Source: Myxococcota bacterium (GTDB lineage Bacteria; Myxococcota; Polyangia; GCA-2747355; JAKLHH01). Taken from it: 7,798 bases of DNA. Below are positions 1,310 through 7,739 of the stretch, piece after piece. A program made the position numbers and the translations under genes. The stretch lies in contig JAKLHH010000327.1 in assembly GCA_022710245.1 (NCBI GenBank), positions 1 to 7,798 of the forward strand, read 5' to 3'. Every line of letters begins with the position of its first letter. The first letter of the stretch is position 1. The notes beneath the pieces are model-generated. The model was not told the DNA's origin and did not search any database. It worked only from the letters and a program-made list of their open reading frames with translations.

Positions 1310-1407
1310 CGCCGCCGAGCCGTGACCCGCATGCGTCCTCGAACCTCGCAGCCTCCTGATCGCCCCTCCCGGCACCGGCGCGGCCCCCTCGCGTGAGCCC
1401 TCGATCC

Positions 1408-3732
1408 ATGACCAAACCGCTGCTCGCTCGACCTCGCCACGCCGGCCTCGCCGCTGCGCTCGCGCTGCTGCTCCTCGCCGGCCATTCCCGCGGCGGACCG
1501 CTCGAGTCCGCGGCCGCCGCCTTCGCCCGCGAGGAGTTCGCGGAGGTGCTCCGCCAGCTCCCGGCCGCCCAGCGCGAGGCGGAGGCGAGCCTGCTCCGCG
1601 GGCGCGCGCTCCTCGAGCTCGGGCGCCACGCCGAGGCCGAGAAGAGCCTCTCCAACCTGCTCCCCCCGCTGCCTCAGCTGCGCGACCTGCTGCAGTTCCT
1701 CCTCGGCGAGGCACTCTTCGGGCAGAAGCGCTTCAAGGAGGCGGCCGCGCGCTTCAAGGCCGCCGGGCTGGCGAAGAACTCGCGCTGGATCTACCTCTCC
1801 TGGCAGCGCCGCGCCGCCTCGCTCATCGCCGGCCGTGCCTACCGCGAGGCCGCCGAGGAGTACCGGCACCTGCTCCGCATCCAGGCGAAGCACCCGCGGC
1901 GGCCCGAGTGGGAGGTCGCGCTCGCGCTCTGCCAGGAGAAGCTGGGCGACCGCAAGAAGGCCGCCGAGGCGCTGCAGGAGGTCTGGCTCGGCTCGCCGGT
2001 GAGCCCGGCCGCTGCCAGCGCGCGCAAGGAGCTCGACCGCCTGATCGCCGCCGGCTTGAAGCTCAAGCCGCCGCCGCTCGCGCGCCGGCTCGCGCGCATC
2101 CGCGCGCTGCGTAACGAGAAGAGCTACGCCGCCGCCCTCGAGGAGCTCGGCGCCCTGCGCGAGCGGGAGAAGAGCAAGGAGGCCGCGGCCCGCCTCGACC
2201 TCGAGATCGCGCTCACCCAGCTGAAGGCGGACCGCCCGAAGGAGGCGCTCGCCGCGCTGCGGGCGATCCCCGCGAGCGCCAGCGACCCGCCGCCCTGGCA
2301 CCTGCGCAAGCTGATCGCGACCTGCCTCGCGCGCACCGGCAAGATCGACGAGGCCTCGGCGCTCCTCCTCAAGCACGGGCTGCCAGCCAAGGGCAAGCTG
2401 ACGCCGGCGCAGCGCGCCGAGGTGGGGCGCGCGGCGAAGCTCCTCGCCGAGTACGGCCGCCACGCCGAGGCGCTCAAGCTGCACGAGCGCCTGCTCGCCG
2501 GGAAGAAGAAGCTCGACGCGGAGACGCGCCTCGAGCTCACCTGGCTCGCCTTCCGCGCCGGCCGCCACGCCGAGGCGATCAAGGGCTTCGAGGAGCACCT
2601 CAAGCGCGGGAAGGCGAGCAAGGACTTCACGCTCTACTGGCTGGCGCGGGCCCACGCCGCGGCGGGCCAGGCGCCCAGGGCGGAGGAGCTCTACCGCGAG
2701 CTGATCGCCAAGCACCCGCACACCTACTACACCATCCTCGCGCGCTCGCGCCTCGCGGAGCTGGGCAAGCTGAAGCTCCCGCCCGGCCGCTGCACGGCGC
2801 CGAAGCCGCCGCCCTCGATGGCAGAGCGGAGCGGCGAGGTGCTGAGGCGCCTCGCCGCGCTGATCGCCCGCTACGGAGACCTCTACCCGTCGCTGCAGCG
2901 CGCGCAGACGTTCTGGCGGCTGGGGATGATCGCCGACGCGCGACGCGAGCTCCGGCTGATCGCCATCGACGCCGCCTTCGTCGCCGCCAAGGGGCGCCCC
3001 AAGGGGTGGATCCAGCGCCCGTCGGTGGAGCGCCTCTGGCGCGGCGGGCCGCTCGAGCGGCGGCGCTTCGGCAAGCGCGAGCGGCAGATCGCCAAGGAGG
3101 GCCAGGTGCTGCGGCACGCGCTCTCCGGCCTGCTGCAGGCCGCGGGCATCTCCTACTTCGCCTGGCAGCTCGGCCCGGCGGACCCGAGCCCGGAGCGCGC
3201 GCGGAACCCCCGCGCCTACCCCGAGCTGGTGAACGAAATGGCGCTCCGGTTCAAGCTCGACCCCAACCTGGTCTGGGCCATCATGCGCACCGAGAGCAGC
3301 TACCGCCTCGACGTCATCTCGCGCGTGGGCGCCACCGGCCTGATGCAGATCATGCCCCACACCGGGCGGCGTATCGCGAAGGCGATGGGCCTGAAGGGCT
3401 ACGAGCACGACTCGCTGTTCGAGCCGGAGACGAACCTGCTGATGGCCACCTGGTACCTGAAGGCGCTCTCCGACAAGTTCCACGGGCAGATCACGCTGCT
3501 CGCCGCCGGGTACAACGGCGGCCCGCACCACGTGGCGCGCTGGCTCGACATGCGCGGCAAGAGCTGCGCGGCCGACGAGTTCATCGAGGAGATCCCCTTC
3601 AGCGAGTCGCGCCGCTACGCGAAGAAGATCCTGCGGCTGGTGCGGCTCTACGAGCGCATCTACTGCGGCAAGGACGACCGGCAGGCCTCGAACAAGCTCG
3701 ACGCCACCTTCCTGCCGCAGCCCGACTTCTAG
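1408..3732 (+). CDS. slt: Soluble lytic murein transglycosylase (Slt70-like, family 1A) with long TPR region
   Basis: This 774-residue protein cleaves the MurNAc-GlcNAc bond of peptidoglycan in the periplasm, forming 1,6-anhydro-MurNAc. A signal peptide (KPLLARPRHAG, then a hydrophobic core to about residue 24) is followed by a long alpha-helical, Ala/Leu/Glu-rich TPR-like superhelix (about 30-600). The C-terminal SLT domain has every family landmark: the catalytic Glu in MRTESSY (Glu629), GLMQIMP (644-650), AGYNGG (700-705) and EIPFSESRRY (from about 728). The last motif marks the Slt70 class rather than MltC or EmtA types. It is longer than the E. coli enzyme (about 645 residues) because of the extended superhelix. 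The ATG at 1408 gives a good signal peptide, but no Shine-Dalgarno sequence is evident. An in-frame GTG at 1393 would add five residues and overlaps the TGA of a short upstream frame. The gene is convergent with the pseudokinase gene. Confidence 0.93.
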   Translation: MTKPLLARPRHAGLAAALALLLLAGHSRGGPLESAAAAFAREEFAEVLRQLPAAQREAEASLLRGRALLELGRHAEAEKSLSNLLPPLPQLRDLLQFLLGEALFGQKRFKEAAARFKAAGLAKNSRWIYLSWQRRAASLIAGRAYREAAEEYRHLLRIQAKHPRRPEWEVALALCQEKLGDRKKAAEALQEVWLGSPVSPAAASARKELDRLIAAGLKLKPPPLARRLARIRALRNEKSYAAALEELGALREREKSKEAAARLDLEIALTQLKADRPKEALAALRAIPASASDPPPWHLRKLIATCLARTGKIDEASALLLKHGLPAKGKLTPAQRAEVGRAAKLLAEYGRHAEALKLHERLLAGKKKLDAETRLELTWLAFRAGRHAEAIKGFEEHLKRGKASKDFTLYWLARAHAAAGQAPRAEELYRELIAKHPHTYYTILARSRLAELGKLKLPPGRCTAPKPPPSMAERSGEVLRRLAALIARYGDLYPSLQRAQTFWRLGMIADARRELRLIAIDAAFVAAKGRPKGWIQRPSVERLWRGGPLERRRFGKRERQIAKEGQVLRHALSGLLQAAGISYFAWQLGPADPSPERARNPRAYPELVNEMALRFKLDPNLVWAIMRTESSYRLDVISRVGATGLMQIMPHTGRRIAKAMGLKGYEHDSLFEPETNLLMATWYLKALSDKFHGQITLLAAGYNGGPHHVARWLDMRGKSCAADEFIEEIPFSESRRYAKKILRLVRLYERIYCGKDDRQASNKLDATFLPQPDF

Positions 3733-3743
3733 GGCAGCGAGCC

Positions 3744-3768
3744 GGGTCAGACCCGACGGGTCAGACCC
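3744..3768. terminator. Symmetric stem-loop between convergent genes, possible bidirectional terminator
   Basis: GGGTCAGACCC occurs at 3744-3754 and again at 3758-3768, separated by GAC. Each copy is nearly self-complementary, so the two copies can pair as 5 bp, an A/A mismatch and 5 bp around a GAC loop. It lies in the 28-bp gap after the transglycosylase stop and runs into the last codons and stop (3763-3761) of the opposite gene. There is no T tract on either side, so intrinsic termination is unproven. Confidence 0.45.
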
Positions 3769-5050
3769 CGACGAGCACGACGCCGAGGAAGCGCCGCGCG
3801 CCGAGCTGCTTGATGCTGGCGGCGACGGACTCGCGGCGGGTCCGGCCCGCGCGCACGACGAGGATGGCGCCGTCGAGGTGGTCCTGCAGGATGTTGATGT
3901 CCGCTGACTCCATCACCGGCGGCGGCGCCACGACGAGGTAGTCGTAGGCGCGGCGCGCCTCCTGCATCAGGTCGGCGATGGTCTCCGAGCTGAGCACCGC
4001 GGCCGGGTTTCGCTCGACGCCACCCGCCGGCAGCAGGCTGACGCTCCCGCTCAGCGCGAGCGCCTCCCACGGGTCGCGCGGGCTGCGCCGGTGCTGGCGC
4101 ACCTGGTCGGCGAGGTTCACGCTCGACTCCAGCCCGAAGAGCTCGGCCAGCTCGGGGTGGCGCAGGTTCGCCTCGAGGAGCAGGACGCGGCACCGCGTCC
4201 CCTCGCCGAGCGCGAGCGTGATGTTCGCGGCGGCGAGCGTCCCGTCGCGGCTGGTGGTGGGCGCGGCCAGGGCGACCACGCGCAGCCCGCGCGCCTCCCT
4301 CAGCTTCAGCGCGAGCACGCGGTACTGCTCCGCCATCGGCGAGCCGGGCTGGGTCATCAGCCAGAGCGCGGGGTCCGGCGAGACGCGCTCGAGGGCGCGC
4401 TCCTTGATGAGGAGCGGCGCCTCGATCTGCAGCGGCTGCGGGCGGGTCGGTCGTCCCTCGACGTCCTCGGCCAGCTCCCGCGTCTCCCCGAGCGGGGGCT
4501 CGGCGCGCGCGGCCCACGCGCGCGACGCGCTGACCCCGGCACGGCGCGAGGCGCCCACGTCCCGGGACTCGATCACGCCACGGGCAGAGGTCACGTCGAC
4601 GGCGCGGGGCGGCAGGGGCTCGACCCGCTGGGCGCGGCGCGCGGCCGACCGCTCCACCAGCTCCTCCTCCGGCTCGGCCGTCCGGGCGCGCGAGCGCCGC
4701 GCGGCCGACCGCTCCAGCGCGTCGCCCGGCTCGCGTCGAGCGGCGAAGCCCTCCGGCTCCTCGGGGCGCTCGGCGCGCAGGGCCGTCGAGGTGTAGGGCG
4801 CGGTGGTGCGGCGCCGCTGGCTCTGCTCGACGGGGGCCTCGCCCTGCCAGACCGTGGTCTGCACGCCGTCGAGCCACTTGCCGGGGCCGGGGCCGGGGCC
4901 GGGCGCGGGTGCGGGCGCCGGCGCCGGCTTGGCGGGATCGGTGGTCTCCTGCTCGTCGGTGTCGGCGAGCGCCTCGAGGCTCTGCACGTCCGTCGTCGCC
5001 TCGCGGTAGGGCGAGCTCGCCGGGCCTCGATCTTTCCGCCGCTGATCCAA
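3761..5050 (-). CDS. BY-kinase/CpsD-like protein with degenerate nucleotide-binding motifs (probable pseudokinase)
   Basis: This is a 429-residue cytoplasmic protein with no membrane segment. Residues 1-230 are low-complexity: a Pro/Ala then Pro/Gly tract (41-57), two ERSAARR repeats (113-119, 133-139) and charged linker. Residues 231-429 match the cytoplasmic domain of bacterial tyrosine kinases that regulate polysaccharide export (CpsD/CapB/Wzc C-terminus): GSPMAEQYRVLALKL, VLLLEANLRHP, LLPAGGVERNPAAVLSS, DGAILVVRAGRTRRESV. All three catalytic motifs are changed. Walker A GEGKTT is SRDGTL (267-272, Lys to Gly). Walker A' VDAD is LEAN (292-295). Walker B IIDTPP is VVAPPP (373-378). The C-terminal Tyr cluster is missing and the chain ends at VVLVGV. 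The TTG start has GAGG 6 nt upstream (5060-5057). It may act as a regulatory or scaffold partner of an active kinase elsewhere, or be decaying. Conservation of the surrounding fold favours a maintained protein. Confidence 0.85.
   Translation of the reverse strand: MDQRRKDRGPASSPYREATTDVQSLEALADTDEQETTDPAKPAPAPAPAPGPGPGPGKWLDGVQTTVWQGEAPVEQSQRRRTTAPYTSTALRAERPEEPEGFAARREPGDALERSAARRSRARTAEPEEELVERSAARRAQRVEPLPPRAVDVTSARGVIESRDVGASRRAGVSASRAWAARAEPPLGETRELAEDVEGRPTRPQPLQIEAPLLIKERALERVSPDPALWLMTQPGSPMAEQYRVLALKLREARGLRVVALAAPTTSRDGTLAAANITLALGEGTRCRVLLLEANLRHPELAELFGLESSVNLADQVRQHRRSPRDPWEALALSGSVSLLPAGGVERNPAAVLSSETIADLMQEARRAYDYLVVAPPPVMESADINILQDHLDGAILVVRAGRTRRESVAASIKQLGARRFLGVVLVGV
4639..4716 (-). 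repeat. 18-bp direct repeat, 60 bp apart, inside the pseudokinase gene
   Basis: GCGCGGCCGACCGCTCCA (plus-strand reading) occurs at 4639-4656 and 4699-4716. The 60-bp offset is exactly 20 codons, and the copies encode the two ERSAARR segments of the disordered N-terminal half. It looks like an internal duplication that kept the frame. Confidence 0.8.
4881..4898 (-). repeat. CCGGGG hexamer tandem repeat (3 copies)
   Basis: Three perfect copies, followed by degenerate ones to about 4930, encode the Pro-Gly and Pro-Ala dipeptide tract of the pseudokinase linker. Because the unit is six bases, copy-number change would alter linker length but not the reading frame. Confidence 0.85.
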
Positions 5051-5066
5051 GACTGGCCTCGAGCTA

Positions 5067-5096
5067 CTTGTAGAGCGGGCTGAAAGCCCTGGTCAA
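5067..5096 (-). promoter_or_regulatory. Candidate promoter of the pseudokinase gene, with an inverted repeat in the spacer
   Basis: On the minus strand TTGACC (5096-5091, 5 of 6 matches) and TACAAG (5072-5067, 4 of 6) are separated by 18 bp. Predicted transcription starts near 5060, just at the ribosome binding site, giving a very short leader. Between the two hexamers lies a perfect inverted repeat, GGGCT (5077-5081) and AGCCC (5085-5089) with a 3-bp centre, which could be an operator half-site pair. CTTGTAG also recurs at 5067-5073 and 5098-5104. Confidence 0.45.
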
Positions 5097-5135
5097 GCTT
5101 GTAGCATGCAGGAGCTGGGTCCCGATCGGTAGTGC

Positions 5136-5441
5136 TCAGTTGCCGGTGGCGGGCCCGCGCTCGACCTCGAGCCCCAGCCCGCGGAGCAGGCGGAGGCTGG
5201 GGTCCTCGCAGCGTGGGACGCGCACCGCCGGTAGCGGGGCGGCGAGCGCGCCCTCCGTGCTCTGCAGCCTGTCGCTCTCGCGGCAGCGGCACTCGGTGTC
5301 GACGCACTTGCACTCGTACCCTGGCTCGCAGGAGTGGTCCGTCGCGAGCGGGTAGCAGGGCTTGTTGTCCACCACGTCGTCGGGGACGGTGCAGCCGGCC
5401 AGCGCGAGGAGGCCGGCGAGCGCGAGGCGTCGTACCGTCAT
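5136..5441 (-). CDS. Small Cys-rich lipoprotein, unknown function
   Basis: The 101-residue product begins with a lipoprotein signal peptide (MTVRRLALAGLLALAGC; lipobox LAGC, lipidated Cys17). Seven more Cys follow at 29, 38, 44, 46, 51, 53 and 78, six of them packed into residues 29-53 in a pattern (CEPGYECKCVDTECRC) that resembles an EGF-like or other small disulfide module. The rest (54-101) has no recognisable motif. It is probably an envelope-attached, disulfide-stabilised protein. The start is secure: the ATG at 5441-5439 shares its A with the TGA of the upstream gene, and a strong purine-rich site (GGAGGGAGG) ends 5 nt before it. The two genes are therefore almost certainly translated from one mRNA, possibly by coupled translation. 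I do not recognise the family. Confidence 0.82.
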   Translation of the reverse strand: MTVRRLALAGLLALAGCTVPDDVVDNKPCYPLATDHSCEPGYECKCVDTECRCRESDRLQSTEGALAAPLPAVRVPRCEDPSLRLLRGLGLEVERGPATGN

Positions 5442-6424
5442 CAGAACCTCCCTCCAGCGACGAGCAGCCCGCGGCCCGCGCTGACGTCGAGGCCCAGGCG
5501 CAGCCTGGCGCGCTCGTCGGCGCGGTCGCTGCGCGCCTGCAGGATGAAGAGCAGCGCCGAGGTGGCGAGGAGCGCGCCGCCCGCGCCATAGCAGATGTTG
5601 GCGACCAGCGCGTTCTTCTGCGCCTTGTCCCGCAGCACGAAGGCGTCGTGCTGCGAGGTGGTGTCGTAGGCGTCGTTGACGGCGCCGCGTGAGACCAGCC
5701 CGAAGGTGACAGCGACCCCCATCGCCGCCACGCCGGCGCTGCCCACCAGGAAGGCATGCCAGTAGCGCCGACCGAAGGAGCGCCGCGGCGGGGGCGGAGC
5801 GGGCGCCGCGACGACGGGCGCGCCGCGGCTCGGCCCCGAGGCGGCCGGCTTCTTCTTCCCGGCGAGGGGATCCTCGGTGTCACGCTGCTCGAGGATGGCA
5901 GCGGCGGCCTCGGCCTCGCTCTTGGTGACGGCGCCGTCGTCGGCGCCACCCTTGCCCTTGCCCTTGCCCTTGCCTGTGCCGGCCTTGCCGATCAGGCGCT
6001 GGGCGAGCTGGAGCGCCGGCGGGTGCGCCTTCGGTGAGTCCATGTCGAAGGCCTCCGCCGCCGCCACCTCGCCGCTCCCTGCGGAGATGACGCGGAGGTC
6101 GACGTGCAGGCCCCCGCCCTGCGCCTCCACGTGCCCCGTGAGGAGGAGGCTGACCCCGAGCTTGCCGCCCACCGCGCGCGCGCACGAGGCCTGCTGCAGG
6201 CAGAGGCGCAGCTTGGCCGCGTGCCCGGCGTCGACGAGCTTGAGCTGGACGCGGTGGCTCTTGCGAAGCCCGGTGGCGATCGCCTTGACCACGCTGGCGG
6301 CGACCTGGGCCGCGCCCTTCCCGCTGGAGGAGAGGGGGACCAGCGCGACCCGCTGCGGGCCGGCCTCCGCGAGCGCGGGCAGCAAGGCCAGGCAGAGAGG
6401 CAGCCAGCGTGCGATCGATCTCAT
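5441..6424 (-). CDS. Secreted/inner-membrane protein: N-terminal TolB/FlgO-like domain plus two C-terminal helices
   Basis: This 327-residue protein has a signal peptide (cleavage probably after AEA, residue 21). Residues 24-140 look like the small alpha/beta domain seen in TolB N-terminal or FlgO-like proteins: VALVPLSSSGKGAAQVAASVV, an RVQLKLVDA strand, LLLTGHVEAQGGGLHVDLRVI, then SAGSGEVAAAEAF. A KGKGKGKG tract (151-158), a charged stretch and a Pro/Ala linker (about 192-213) follow. Two hydrophobic helices (about 223-244 and 272-296) flank a short polar loop (SRGAVNDAYDTTSQHDAFVL). This architecture recurs in PEGA/TPR-type envelope proteins of myxobacteria; that comparison is from memory of the family. 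Cys75 and Cys81 could form a disulfide. The start at 6424 has GGAGGG 3 nt upstream. It is the first gene of a unit with the Cys-rich lipoprotein. The specific function is unknown. Confidence 0.8.
   Translation of the reverse strand: MRSIARWLPLCLALLPALAEAGPQRVALVPLSSSGKGAAQVAASVVKAIATGLRKSHRVQLKLVDAGHAAKLRLCLQQASCARAVGGKLGVSLLLTGHVEAQGGGLHVDLRVISAGSGEVAAAEAFDMDSPKAHPPALQLAQRLIGKAGTGKGKGKGKGGADDGAVTKSEAEAAAAILEQRDTEDPLAGKKKPAASGPSRGAPVVAAPAPPPPRRSFGRRYWHAFLVGSAGVAAMGVAVTFGLVSRGAVNDAYDTTSQHDAFVLRDKAQKNALVANICYGAGGALLATSALLFILQARSDRADERARLRLGLDVSAGRGLLVAGGRF
5949..5972 (-). repeat. CCCTTG hexamer tandem repeat (4 copies)
   Basis: Four perfect copies encode the alternating Lys-Gly tract of the two-helix protein. 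As with the Pro-Gly tract in the pseudokinase gene, a 6-base unit keeps the frame when copy number changes. Confidence 0.9.
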
Positions 6425-6455
6425 GCACCCTCCTCGGGAGAGCCACGGCGGCGCA

Positions 6456-6479
6456 GGTCCGTCGTGGGGACGACGGTCC
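6456..6479 (-). other. Stem-loop in the leader of the two-helix protein gene
   Basis: CCGTCGT (6459-6465) and ACGACGG (6470-6476) are perfect inverted repeats around GGGG. The stem extends by two more G-C pairs beyond a T/T mismatch (6456-6457 with 6478-6479). It lies about 30 nt upstream of the start codon, inside the predicted 5' leader, so it could affect translation or RNA stability, or serve as an operator in DNA. Confidence 0.6.
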
Positions 6480-6523
6480 CGCGAGGCCGCGGTCAGTAAC
6501 GTTTGCAAGTCACGATCCACCCC

Positions 6524-6552
6524 AGTGTACCCTCCGGAACGGCGAAGTTGAA
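6524..6552 (-). promoter_or_regulatory. Candidate promoter of the two-helix/Cys-rich lipoprotein unit
   Basis: On the minus strand TACACT (6529-6524, 4 of 6 matches) lies 17 bp after TTCAAC (6552-6547, 3 of 6). Transcription would start near 6517, giving a leader of about 93 nt that contains the stem-loop. The -10 is identical to that of the divergent WHy lipoprotein promoter. Confidence 0.35.
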
Positions 6553-6559
6553 TTGTCAC

Positions 6560-6728
6560 GAGATGGAGGGAGCGCGAGGCGCCGGGGGGGCAGGGCCATC
6601 GCCACGAGGTGGGGACCCGCGCACTGGGAGCCGGGTGCCCAGCTGTGGGCATGCTCCCCCACCGGCGCGCGCGTCTCATCCCGGAGCGTCCCGCAGCGAC
6701 GCGAGGACGGCGGCGGCGGCGCGCCGCC
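6560..6728. other. Spacer in the divergent promoter region, nothing recognised
   Basis: The whole gap between the divergent genes (6425-6763) is 339 bp. Its outer parts hold the leader stem-loop and two promoter candidates. This middle part is GC-rich. A plus-strand frame is open through it in frame with the lipoprotein gene, but it encodes Arg/Ala/Gly/Pro-rich sequence with no domain and would place a long extension before a proper signal peptide. I see no gene, RNA or repeat here. Confidence 0.55.
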
Positions 6729-6757
6729 TTGGCACGGGTAGGCGGACGGCTTACACT
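6729..6757 (+). promoter_or_regulatory. Sigma70-type promoter of the WHy lipoprotein gene, predicting a leaderless mRNA
   Basis: TTGGCA (6729-6734, 5 of 6 matches) and TACACT (6752-6757, 4 of 6) are separated by exactly 17 bp. The start of transcription expected 6-7 nt after the -10 falls at 6763-6764, the first base of the proposed GTG start codon. No ribosome binding site precedes that GTG, which agrees with a leaderless transcript. Confidence 0.65.
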
Positions 6758-6763
6758 CGACGC

Positions 6764-7663
6764 GTGCTCCGTCGACGATGCCTCCGGCTGGCAGCCCCGC
6801 GGCCGCGCGCTCTCCTCGCGCTGCTCAGCGTGCCGTGGCTCCTCGCCGGCTGCGCCGAGCGGTTCCTCGACTTCCAGGTGCGCCGCCTGACCGCGCTCAA
6901 GGTGGTGCGCATCGACGGCGCGGGGTTCGACCTGCAGGTCCGCTGCGAGCTGGAGAACCCGAACCCGCTCGGGGCCGAGCTCGGCGCCATCTCGTTCGAG
7001 ACCTGGGCCGGCGACCATCGCCTCGGCCGCGGCACGCTCCCGGGGCCGATCCAGGTGGCCGCGCGCAGCCGCTTCACCCTCGAGGTGCCGGTGCGCGTGG
7101 CCTACGCCGAGCTGCCGGCCGATCTGCCCGCGCGGGTCGCCGGCGGCTCGCTCGCGCTGCAGACCGAGGCGAGCTTCAGCGCCCGCACGCCGGTCGGGAG
7201 CTACGCGATGCGGCTCCGCTCGTCGGGGCAGACGCAGGTCGCCGAGGCGCTGCAGGTAGCGGTGCAGGGGAGCTTCCGCGGCGAGGCGCTCCGCGTCGAG
7301 CGCATCTCCCTCGCTGGCCTCGAGCTGCGGCGGATCCGGCTCAAGGTGCGCCTGCGCGCGCGCAACCTCTTTGCCTTCCCGCTCCGCGTCCAGCGCGGCG
7401 AGGTGGACCTCGCCATCGGCGGGACGCCGTTCGGCAAGAGCAAGCTCGAGCAGCCGCTCGCGCTGCCGGCGCACGGCGAGGCGACCACGGAGGTGGCGAT
7501 CGCGGCCACCCACGGCACGGTCGGCACGGTGATCACGAGCATGCTCGGCCAGCAGCCGCGCTTCCGCGTGCGCGGCACCCTCTGGATCGACCCTGTCGGC
7601 GGCGTCTCGCAGATCCCCATCGACGTCGAGGCGGACCAGTCGATCTTCGGCTCGGGGGAGTAG
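6764..7663 (+). CDS. Lipoprotein with two WHy/LEA-2-like domains
   Basis: The 299-residue product has a lipoprotein signal (basic LRRRCLRLAAPRPR, hydrophobic core, lipobox LAGC with Cys30). Two related beta-rich domains follow. Residues about 45-145 match the WHy/LEA type 2 fold (late-embryogenesis-abundant group 14), with a typical NPN motif (ELENPNPLGAEL, Asn65-Asn67) and the strand pairs VVRIDGAGFDLQVRCEL and FTLEVPVRV. Residues about 176-290 repeat the pattern (LELRRIRLKVRLRARNLFAFPL in the NPN position, then a beta-sandwich with ATTEVAIAA). Bacterial members are envelope-associated and linked to desiccation or stress tolerance in plants, but their bacterial role is poorly defined. The GTG at 6764 is chosen because it directly precedes the signal peptide and coincides with the predicted transcript start. 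The frame is open further upstream but without coding character. The stop lies in a five-copy tandem repeat. Confidence 0.85.
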   Translation: MLRRRCLRLAAPRPRALLALLSVPWLLAGCAERFLDFQVRRLTALKVVRIDGAGFDLQVRCELENPNPLGAELGAISFETWAGDHRLGRGTLPGPIQVAARSRFTLEVPVRVAYAELPADLPARVAGGSLALQTEASFSARTPVGSYAMRLRSSGQTQVAEALQVAVQGSFRGEALRVERISLAGLELRRIRLKVRLRARNLFAFPLRVQRGEVDLAIGGTPFGKSKLEQPLALPAHGEATTEVAIAATHGTVGTVITSMLGQQPRFRVRGTLWIDPVGGVSQIPIDVEADQSIFGSGE

Positions 7664-7739
7664 CGTCGGCTCGGGAGTAGCCTCGGCTCGGGGGAGTAGC
7701 GTCGGCTCGGGGGAGTAGCGTCGGGTCGGGGGAGTGGCG
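7647..7739 (+). repeat. 19-bp tandem repeat (5 copies) beginning in the last codons of the WHy lipoprotein gene
   Basis: The unit TCGGCTCGGGGGAGTAGCG occurs at 7647-7665, 7683-7701 and 7702-7720. A 17-bp variant (two G deleted, last base C) is at 7666-7682, and a variant with TGG in place of TAG is at 7721-7739. The first copy encodes the final GSGE and the TAG. Later TAGs at 7678, 7697 and 7716 lie in frames +2, 0 and +1 relative to the gene, so all three frames are closed. Confidence 0.95.

Follow-up and report, generated by a model that had tools for sequence, protein, structure and literature searches.

What does a bacterial tyrosine kinase (BY-kinase) become when the residues for its chemistry have gone? 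The question is raised by a 7,798-nucleotide stretch of DNA from a Myxococcota bacterium (contig JAKLHH010000327.1 of assembly GCA_022710245.1; the whole stretch is called the window here), in which a minus-strand gene at 3761..5050 encodes a BY-kinase-like protein that a first-pass annotation had described as substituted in Walker A, A′ and B. The substitutions are confirmed: Gly270 stands for the P-loop Lys, Glu293 and Asn295 for the A′ Asp residues and Ala375 for the Walker B Asp. The protein belongs to a clade of at least 12 members, itself and 11 others at 44–69% identity (best local alignment), and both the P-loop Lys (position 270) and the Walker B Asp (position 375) are gone in all 12. 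The clade represents conserved BY pseudokinases of probable Myxococcota origin. On balance it is probable, if by no great measure, that the window protein is a stand-alone BY-kinase-fold pseudokinase without canonical ATP use, acting as cytoplasmic scaffold of a polysaccharide co-polymerase of the PCP-2 type (PCP) encoded elsewhere.

The earlier statement that the frame is undamaged holds: 429 amino acids are open and third positions are of coding type (GC3 0.96). A promoter scan found none. The Pfam scan of the protein gave no match, six polysaccharide tyrosine-kinase models of NCBIfam match it, each below cut-off (top three E 1.5e-22 to 1.1e-19), and its top matches among PDB sequences are BY-kinases, from E 9.8e-12. 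By inspection there is no signal or membrane segment. Structure modelling, which the first-pass annotation had called for, yielded with AlphaFold2 (AF2) a complete BY-kinase fold behind a disordered tail; the model superposes over 189–201 residues on BY-kinase structures including Wzc and CapAB, and has no C-terminal helix. The long disordered N-terminal half that had been claimed is borne out by low predicted local distance difference test scores (pLDDT) over residues 1–200, and residues 1–205 abound in Ala, Arg, Pro and Glu. The gene and its parts are as follows.

3761..5050, minus strand: BY pseudokinase gene, 429 amino acids, TTG start, uninterrupted frame
4439..5050, minus strand: disordered N-terminal tail, residues 1–204 (AF2 pLDDT 39–65 per block of ten over residues 1–200)
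4847..4879, minus strand: conserved tail motif KWLDGVQTTVW, residues 58–68 (10 of 12 clade rows)
4364..4438, minus strand: conserved segment ahead of the domain, residues 205–229 (clade alignment; strand at 215–219 in the AF2 model)
3764..4420, minus strand: BY-kinase-fold domain, residues 211–429
4310..4330, minus strand: helix-2 oligomer motif EX2RX2R, here EQYRVLA, its third residue lost
4235..4261, minus strand: former Walker A (P-loop) PTTSRDGTL, no Lys at 270
4163..4180, minus strand: Walker A′ variant LLEANL
4067..4114, minus strand: LADQVRQHRRSPRDPW block, common to Myxococcota relatives (Q316, R318, H320 and W328 in 12 of 12)
3917..3940, minus strand: former Walker B YLVVAPPP, Asp375 replaced

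The 11 other members lie on contigs 1.6–29.7 kb long from JGI, ENA and NCBI, and the clade is supported at 100/99 in a tree from which the motif columns had been removed. The count is a lower bound, since the protein searches scored about 8,000 candidates sharing most words and one search missed P0011. No member was found in overlapping sets of 377, 289 and 317 genomes searched at cut-offs of 1e-35, 1e-40 and 1e-52 with few candidates scored per genome, the top matches there being the kinase-like proteins L109 and L110. Within the clade, position 375 is Ser in eight members and Ala in four. The DxD of Walker A′ is missing, with ExN in the window protein, Asp (ten) or Glu (two) at the first position across the clade and Asn at the second in every member. 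The claimed absence of a C-terminal Tyr cluster extends to all 12, none of which has a Tyr in its last 25 residues. The EX2RX2R motif is incomplete; E241 and R244 are present throughout and position 247 is Ala in eight (the window protein among them), Ser in three and Tyr in one.

Few parts of the domain vary as much within the clade as the former Walker A, with only 3 of 190 nine-residue stretches (itself included) equally or more variable, while E241, Q242, R244, Q316, R318, H320, W328, P377, P378 and S382-A383-D384 are invariant. The tail pattern (K/R/G)W(L/I/M)(D/E)xxxT(T/A/S)(V/I/L)W is found in 10 of the 10 members that have a tail, the other two rows being tail-less proteins of 244 and 224 amino acids. 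Such an alignment is what a maintained fold with an abandoned active site would give. The retention of E241/Q242/R244, of Q316..R318.H320..W328 and of the tail motif in a clade wholly lacking the Lys and the Walker B Asp supports the first-pass proposal of a maintained pseudokinase rather than decay.

A profile built on the tail gave nothing at E under 0.1 when run against 145 rows from outside the clade together with 472 that were background or shuffled. Homology of the tail motif beyond the clade was rejected, as the best profile matches (a background protein at 0.18, L093 at 0.28 and a shuffle at 0.66) include a background protein and a shuffle. Look-alikes of the motif, from patterns written post hoc and to be taken as leads only, are WIDEAATLI or FEDAATLI in 7 of the 16 rows of L109's group and WIDDLPTEL in L138. 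Long BY-kinase-like frames without a terminal Tyr tail occur at 8363–10915 of L161 and 7229–9595 of L162 (G389); the L161 frame has a sub-cut-off Wzz match and a linker, EVFSL..WIDDLPTEL, that resembles the tail of the window clade, and in the L162 frame GRT replaces GKT.

The losses differ in age. In 22 Lys-bearing Myxococcota relatives (selected for Lys, hence with Lys in 22/22 by construction), A′ is already E/D-x-N/H in all 22 and none has a Tyr in the final 25 residues. The A′ change and the absent Tyr cluster are thus not specific to the clade, and predate it. The annotated list of substitutions therefore stands in part: the Lys and Walker B losses define the clade, and the A′ and Tyr-cluster changes, half of the list, are older. 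The annotation had also asked whether close relatives have intact motifs; the Lys-bearing relatives compared lie outside the clade, at up to 42% identity to the window protein. All 22 have W328 and the Walker B Asp, and their Walker A stretch is only moderately conserved (27% of stretches equally or more so), as variation affects its first residues in this set as well.

On a 66-row tree, again without motif columns and with further rows picked by hand, the Walker B Asp is present in all 54 rows outside the window clade, and the minimum number of changes is one for this Asp and six for the state of the Lys. L109's group (16 rows) has Lys in 10 and Gln, Ser or Ala in 6, with the Walker B Asp in all 16. 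From this mixture and the six or more changes it follows that the Lys was lost repeatedly in these proteins. A single Lys loss in common with L109 and L110 was rejected on the ground that the group, once better sampled, mixes Lys-bearing and Lys-less members; forcing the 18 Lys-less rows into one clade gave an approximately unbiased (AU) test p of 0.0001 (the group having been defined after the tree was seen), and joining the window clade with the entire L109 group gave p 0.33, no ground for rejection. The window clade is furthest along in motif loss. For these comparisons identical-domain rows were removed from three row sets (12, 2 and 2), 1 of 147 rows had no domain match, and the contig scan used patterns such as (D/E)(A/T)NLR, so that its best 80 of 541 are biased to that form of A′. 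(Outside Myxococcota, the P-loop Lys is lost in Actinoplanes, in L049 and similar proteins, both Lys and Walker B Asp are lost in L031 of Peribacillus, and the Walker B Asp is lost with Lys kept in L078 of Metabacillus, the latter two Bacillaceae.)

At 10 of 13 inspected loci of relatives, those of the Lys-less L109 and L110 among them, a gene of about 480–610 amino acids lies directly upstream of the kinase-like gene on the same strand, the gap being no more than some 50 bases where the two do not overlap, to the extent that starts can be placed; at one more (L012) such a gene is adjacent but convergent. Eight of the 11 adjacent proteins match Wzz or GNVR below cut-off and the other three have no match; an AF2 model of the one beside L109 finds its best structure matches in Wzc and WzzE (Foldseek E 2.5e-10). 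The 11 are taken as PCP-2. Sugar-transferase or glycosyltransferase genes adjoin on L125 and L126, the contigs that hold L109 and L110.

The scaffold reading can be put as a mechanism. The pseudokinase would act by protein–protein contact, its domain docking on the cytoplasmic tail of a PCP and aiding PCP assembly and disassembly without tyrosine phosphorylation, and the disordered N-terminal tail may recruit a further partner through its W-D/E-T-W motif. Computation shows the fold, the Walker A and B losses across the clade, the retention of the tail motif and of some blocks, and the PCP linkage of relatives; the ATP-independence, the partner, the docking and the role of the tail are inferred. 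The pairings EcpK/EpsV and HfsB/HfsA offer a precedent (PMC12004946). Several points weigh against this reading. No PCP gene was found in the 7,798-nucleotide window, no polysaccharide gene is visible at the corresponding locus of related genomes, and two of the 13 loci, L007 and L008 (the latter from G009, a Myxococcales metagenome-assembled genome), have no adjacent PCP. The AF2 model of the protein beside L109 is moderate (pLDDT 70.8, predicted template modelling score 0.43), and its overall superposition is poor (TM score 0.34, root mean square deviation 33). Loss of the third EX2RX2R residue (A247) makes a Wzc-type octamer or classical ring doubtful. The window protein ends at its last strand, with no counterpart of the K/R-rich C-terminal helix given for EcpK (PMC12004946). 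Finally, the lower mean variability in the clade (0.87 vs 1.46 bits) is no evidence of constraint, because the clade is also less divergent.

The surroundings of the window gene bear on what else it might do. The window encodes TetR, SLT, the pseudokinase, a small Cys-rich protein, a TolB-like protein and LEA_2, and three of these adjoin or nearly adjoin it.

1393..3732, plus strand: lytic transglycosylase with tetratricopeptide repeats (TPR) and SLT domain, convergent to the pseudokinase gene (PF01464 E 1.2e-27; 49% identical in G389)
5136..5441, minus strand: small Cys-rich putative lipoprotein, upstream of the pseudokinase gene (a homologue holds the corresponding position in both L160 and L142)
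5441..6424, minus strand: weakly TolB_N-like protein, upstream (sub-cut-off PF04052 match, E 0.027; L160 and L142 each have a homologue)

The Cys-rich gene is separated from the pseudokinase gene by 85 bases. Synteny comes from two related genomes, G389 and the Myxococcales G009, from the second of which the Myxococcota origin was read; the G393 contig ends ahead of the deciding region. In G389 the LEA_2, TolB-like, Cys-rich and SLT genes keep the order and orientation of the window without a kinase-like gene, and the last two frames share 7 bases. All four are present in G009 too, with a different open reading frame between Cys-rich and SLT. Elsewhere the two genomes have four BY-kinase-like matches each (E 1e-20 or better), with the Walker B Asp in 8 of 8. 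Insertion of the pseudokinase gene into the locus in the window's lineage is the simplest account, with loss in both G389 and G009 as the alternative.

The block of SLT transglycosylase, Cys-rich, TolB-like and LEA_2 genes, with or without an extra gene, spans 1393–7663 of the window, 5761–10963 of L160 and 8577–17093 of L142. At 9865–11318 of L143, in G009, stand-alone BY-kinase-like genes lie in tandem, both Lys-bearing. At 841–1094 of the window (minus strand) the frame that opens at 1094 begins like a lipoprotein but meets a stop after 40 residues, and YGYYCTAHGTKTGSGMAGAIQVV, the C-terminal part, is encoded in a different frame; this looks like the broken remnant of what we take to be a small copper-protein-like gene. 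A five-copy imperfect tandem repeat of 19 bases at 7647–7739 overlaps the end of the LEA_2 gene.

It is unlikely, though a serious candidate, that the pseudokinase has departed from the polysaccharide machinery and is now an adaptor for the envelope locus of SLT transglycosylase, TolB-like protein and Cys-rich lipoprotein. Such a role would suit the four-gene order kept in G389 and G009, with the pseudokinase absent in G389, and the position of the window gene close behind the TolB-like and Cys-rich genes on the same strand, but the neighbours seem secreted, the pseudokinase shows no segment that would take it across or into a membrane, and adjacency is no proof of joint function. Just as unlikely is the wider version, in which the protein was freed from polysaccharide export, moved to the envelope locus after catalysis had been lost and became a phosphorylation-free adaptor through its W-D/E-T-W motif, and in which stand-alone BY-kinase folds would repeatedly have been made non-enzymatic in this phylum. 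An atypical nucleotide-binding switch of ParA/MinD type, rather than a pseudo-enzyme, is very improbable: the deviant Walker A of ParA/MinD/Mrp ATPases is KGGxGKT, and neither this nor the Walker B Asp is found in the pseudokinase.

That the protein inhibits or activates an active BY-kinase through mixed oligomers is a still less favoured idea than the envelope adaptor, and quite unlikely. Four of four related genomes (G387, G435, G009 and G389) do hold a BY-kinase frame of 709–740 amino acids with motifs intact and a Tyr-rich tail (L128, L127, L141 and L140), and ring-motif residues E241 and R244 are retained; the third ring-motif residue, however, is gone in 12 of 12, and the EcpK study argues against such dependence for EcpK (PMC12004946). 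Early decay of the gene might be read from the lost catalytic residues and the highly variable P-loop. Identical losses across 12 members at 44–69% identity, with tail motif and domain blocks retained, speak against it, though little weight attaches to the other members having open frames, as a predicted-protein database contains nothing else. Simple decay was rejected because the loss is clade-wide and yet fold and tail motif are kept, and early decay is the least credible of all, hardly to be expected.

The identity of the partner decides how much the clade matters. Together with L109's group (Lys kept in 10 of 16, lost in 6 of 16) the clade forms a ladder within one phylum from Lys-bearing kinase-like proteins to full pseudokinases, which makes it testable whether PCP-2 machines require kinase chemistry. 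Databases label several clade proteins as kinases or chromosome-partitioning ATPases (the JGI names are Mrp ATPase or tyrosine kinase), labels that the active sites do not support.

In the open-licence literature no prior description of the clade was found, and the most directly relevant study is that of EcpK. EcpK (MXAN_7447, also WzeX) is a BY pseudokinase of the Myxococcus xanthus exopolysaccharide (EPS) pathway and, with HfsB, a motif-lacking BY pseudokinase with experimental study (PMC12004946). It is proposed to be a non-enzymatic domain that binds the C-terminus of EpsV, replacing phosphorylation-driven ring disassembly, and its gene is not adjacent to epsV (PMC12004946). In Wzc, a ring of eight kinase domains disassembles upon phosphorylation of the tyrosine tail (PMC8285477). 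EX2RX2R is named as a ring contact in the work on CapB, where CapB1, inactive in vitro, is discussed as a possible BY pseudokinase (PMC3795738).

The window protein is unlike the CapB and Wzc kinase domains, which have active motifs and a Tyr cluster and are separate from or fused to their PCP; of the features of an active BY-kinase it has the fold, and lacks the Walker A Lys, Walker B Asp, A′ DxD, Tyr cluster and complete EX2RX2R. Its nearest relatives in sequence are stand-alone Myxococcota BY-kinase-like proteins (L001, L004, P0026 and others, up to 42% identity), mostly encoded beside PCP genes, which share a similar A′ variant, the Q..W block, a long tail and the lack of a Tyr tail, but keep the Walker B Asp and, in many cases, the P-loop Lys. 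EcpK differs, by its description rather than by sequence comparison, in lacking alpha1/2, beta1, alpha6/7 and beta4/5, where the window protein has the full core, and in being encoded in eps clusters (PMC12004946), the window gene not being seen in one; without the C-terminal helix or the reduced core, the modelled window protein does not look like an EcpK orthologue. HfsB of Caulobacter, whose PCP is HfsA, belongs to another bacterial group and is likened to the window protein, again by published description and not by sequence, as a stand-alone BY pseudokinase without a Tyr tail (PMC12004946). With EcpK the window protein shares a stand-alone BY-kinase fold, the loss of Walker motifs and Tyr tail, an unstructured N-terminus, a host in Myxococcota and a gene apart from any PCP gene (in the window, in the present case). 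With its stand-alone fold, and Walker motifs and Tyr tail gone in 12 of 12 members, the clade would, on sequence, be of the EcpK/HfsB kind.
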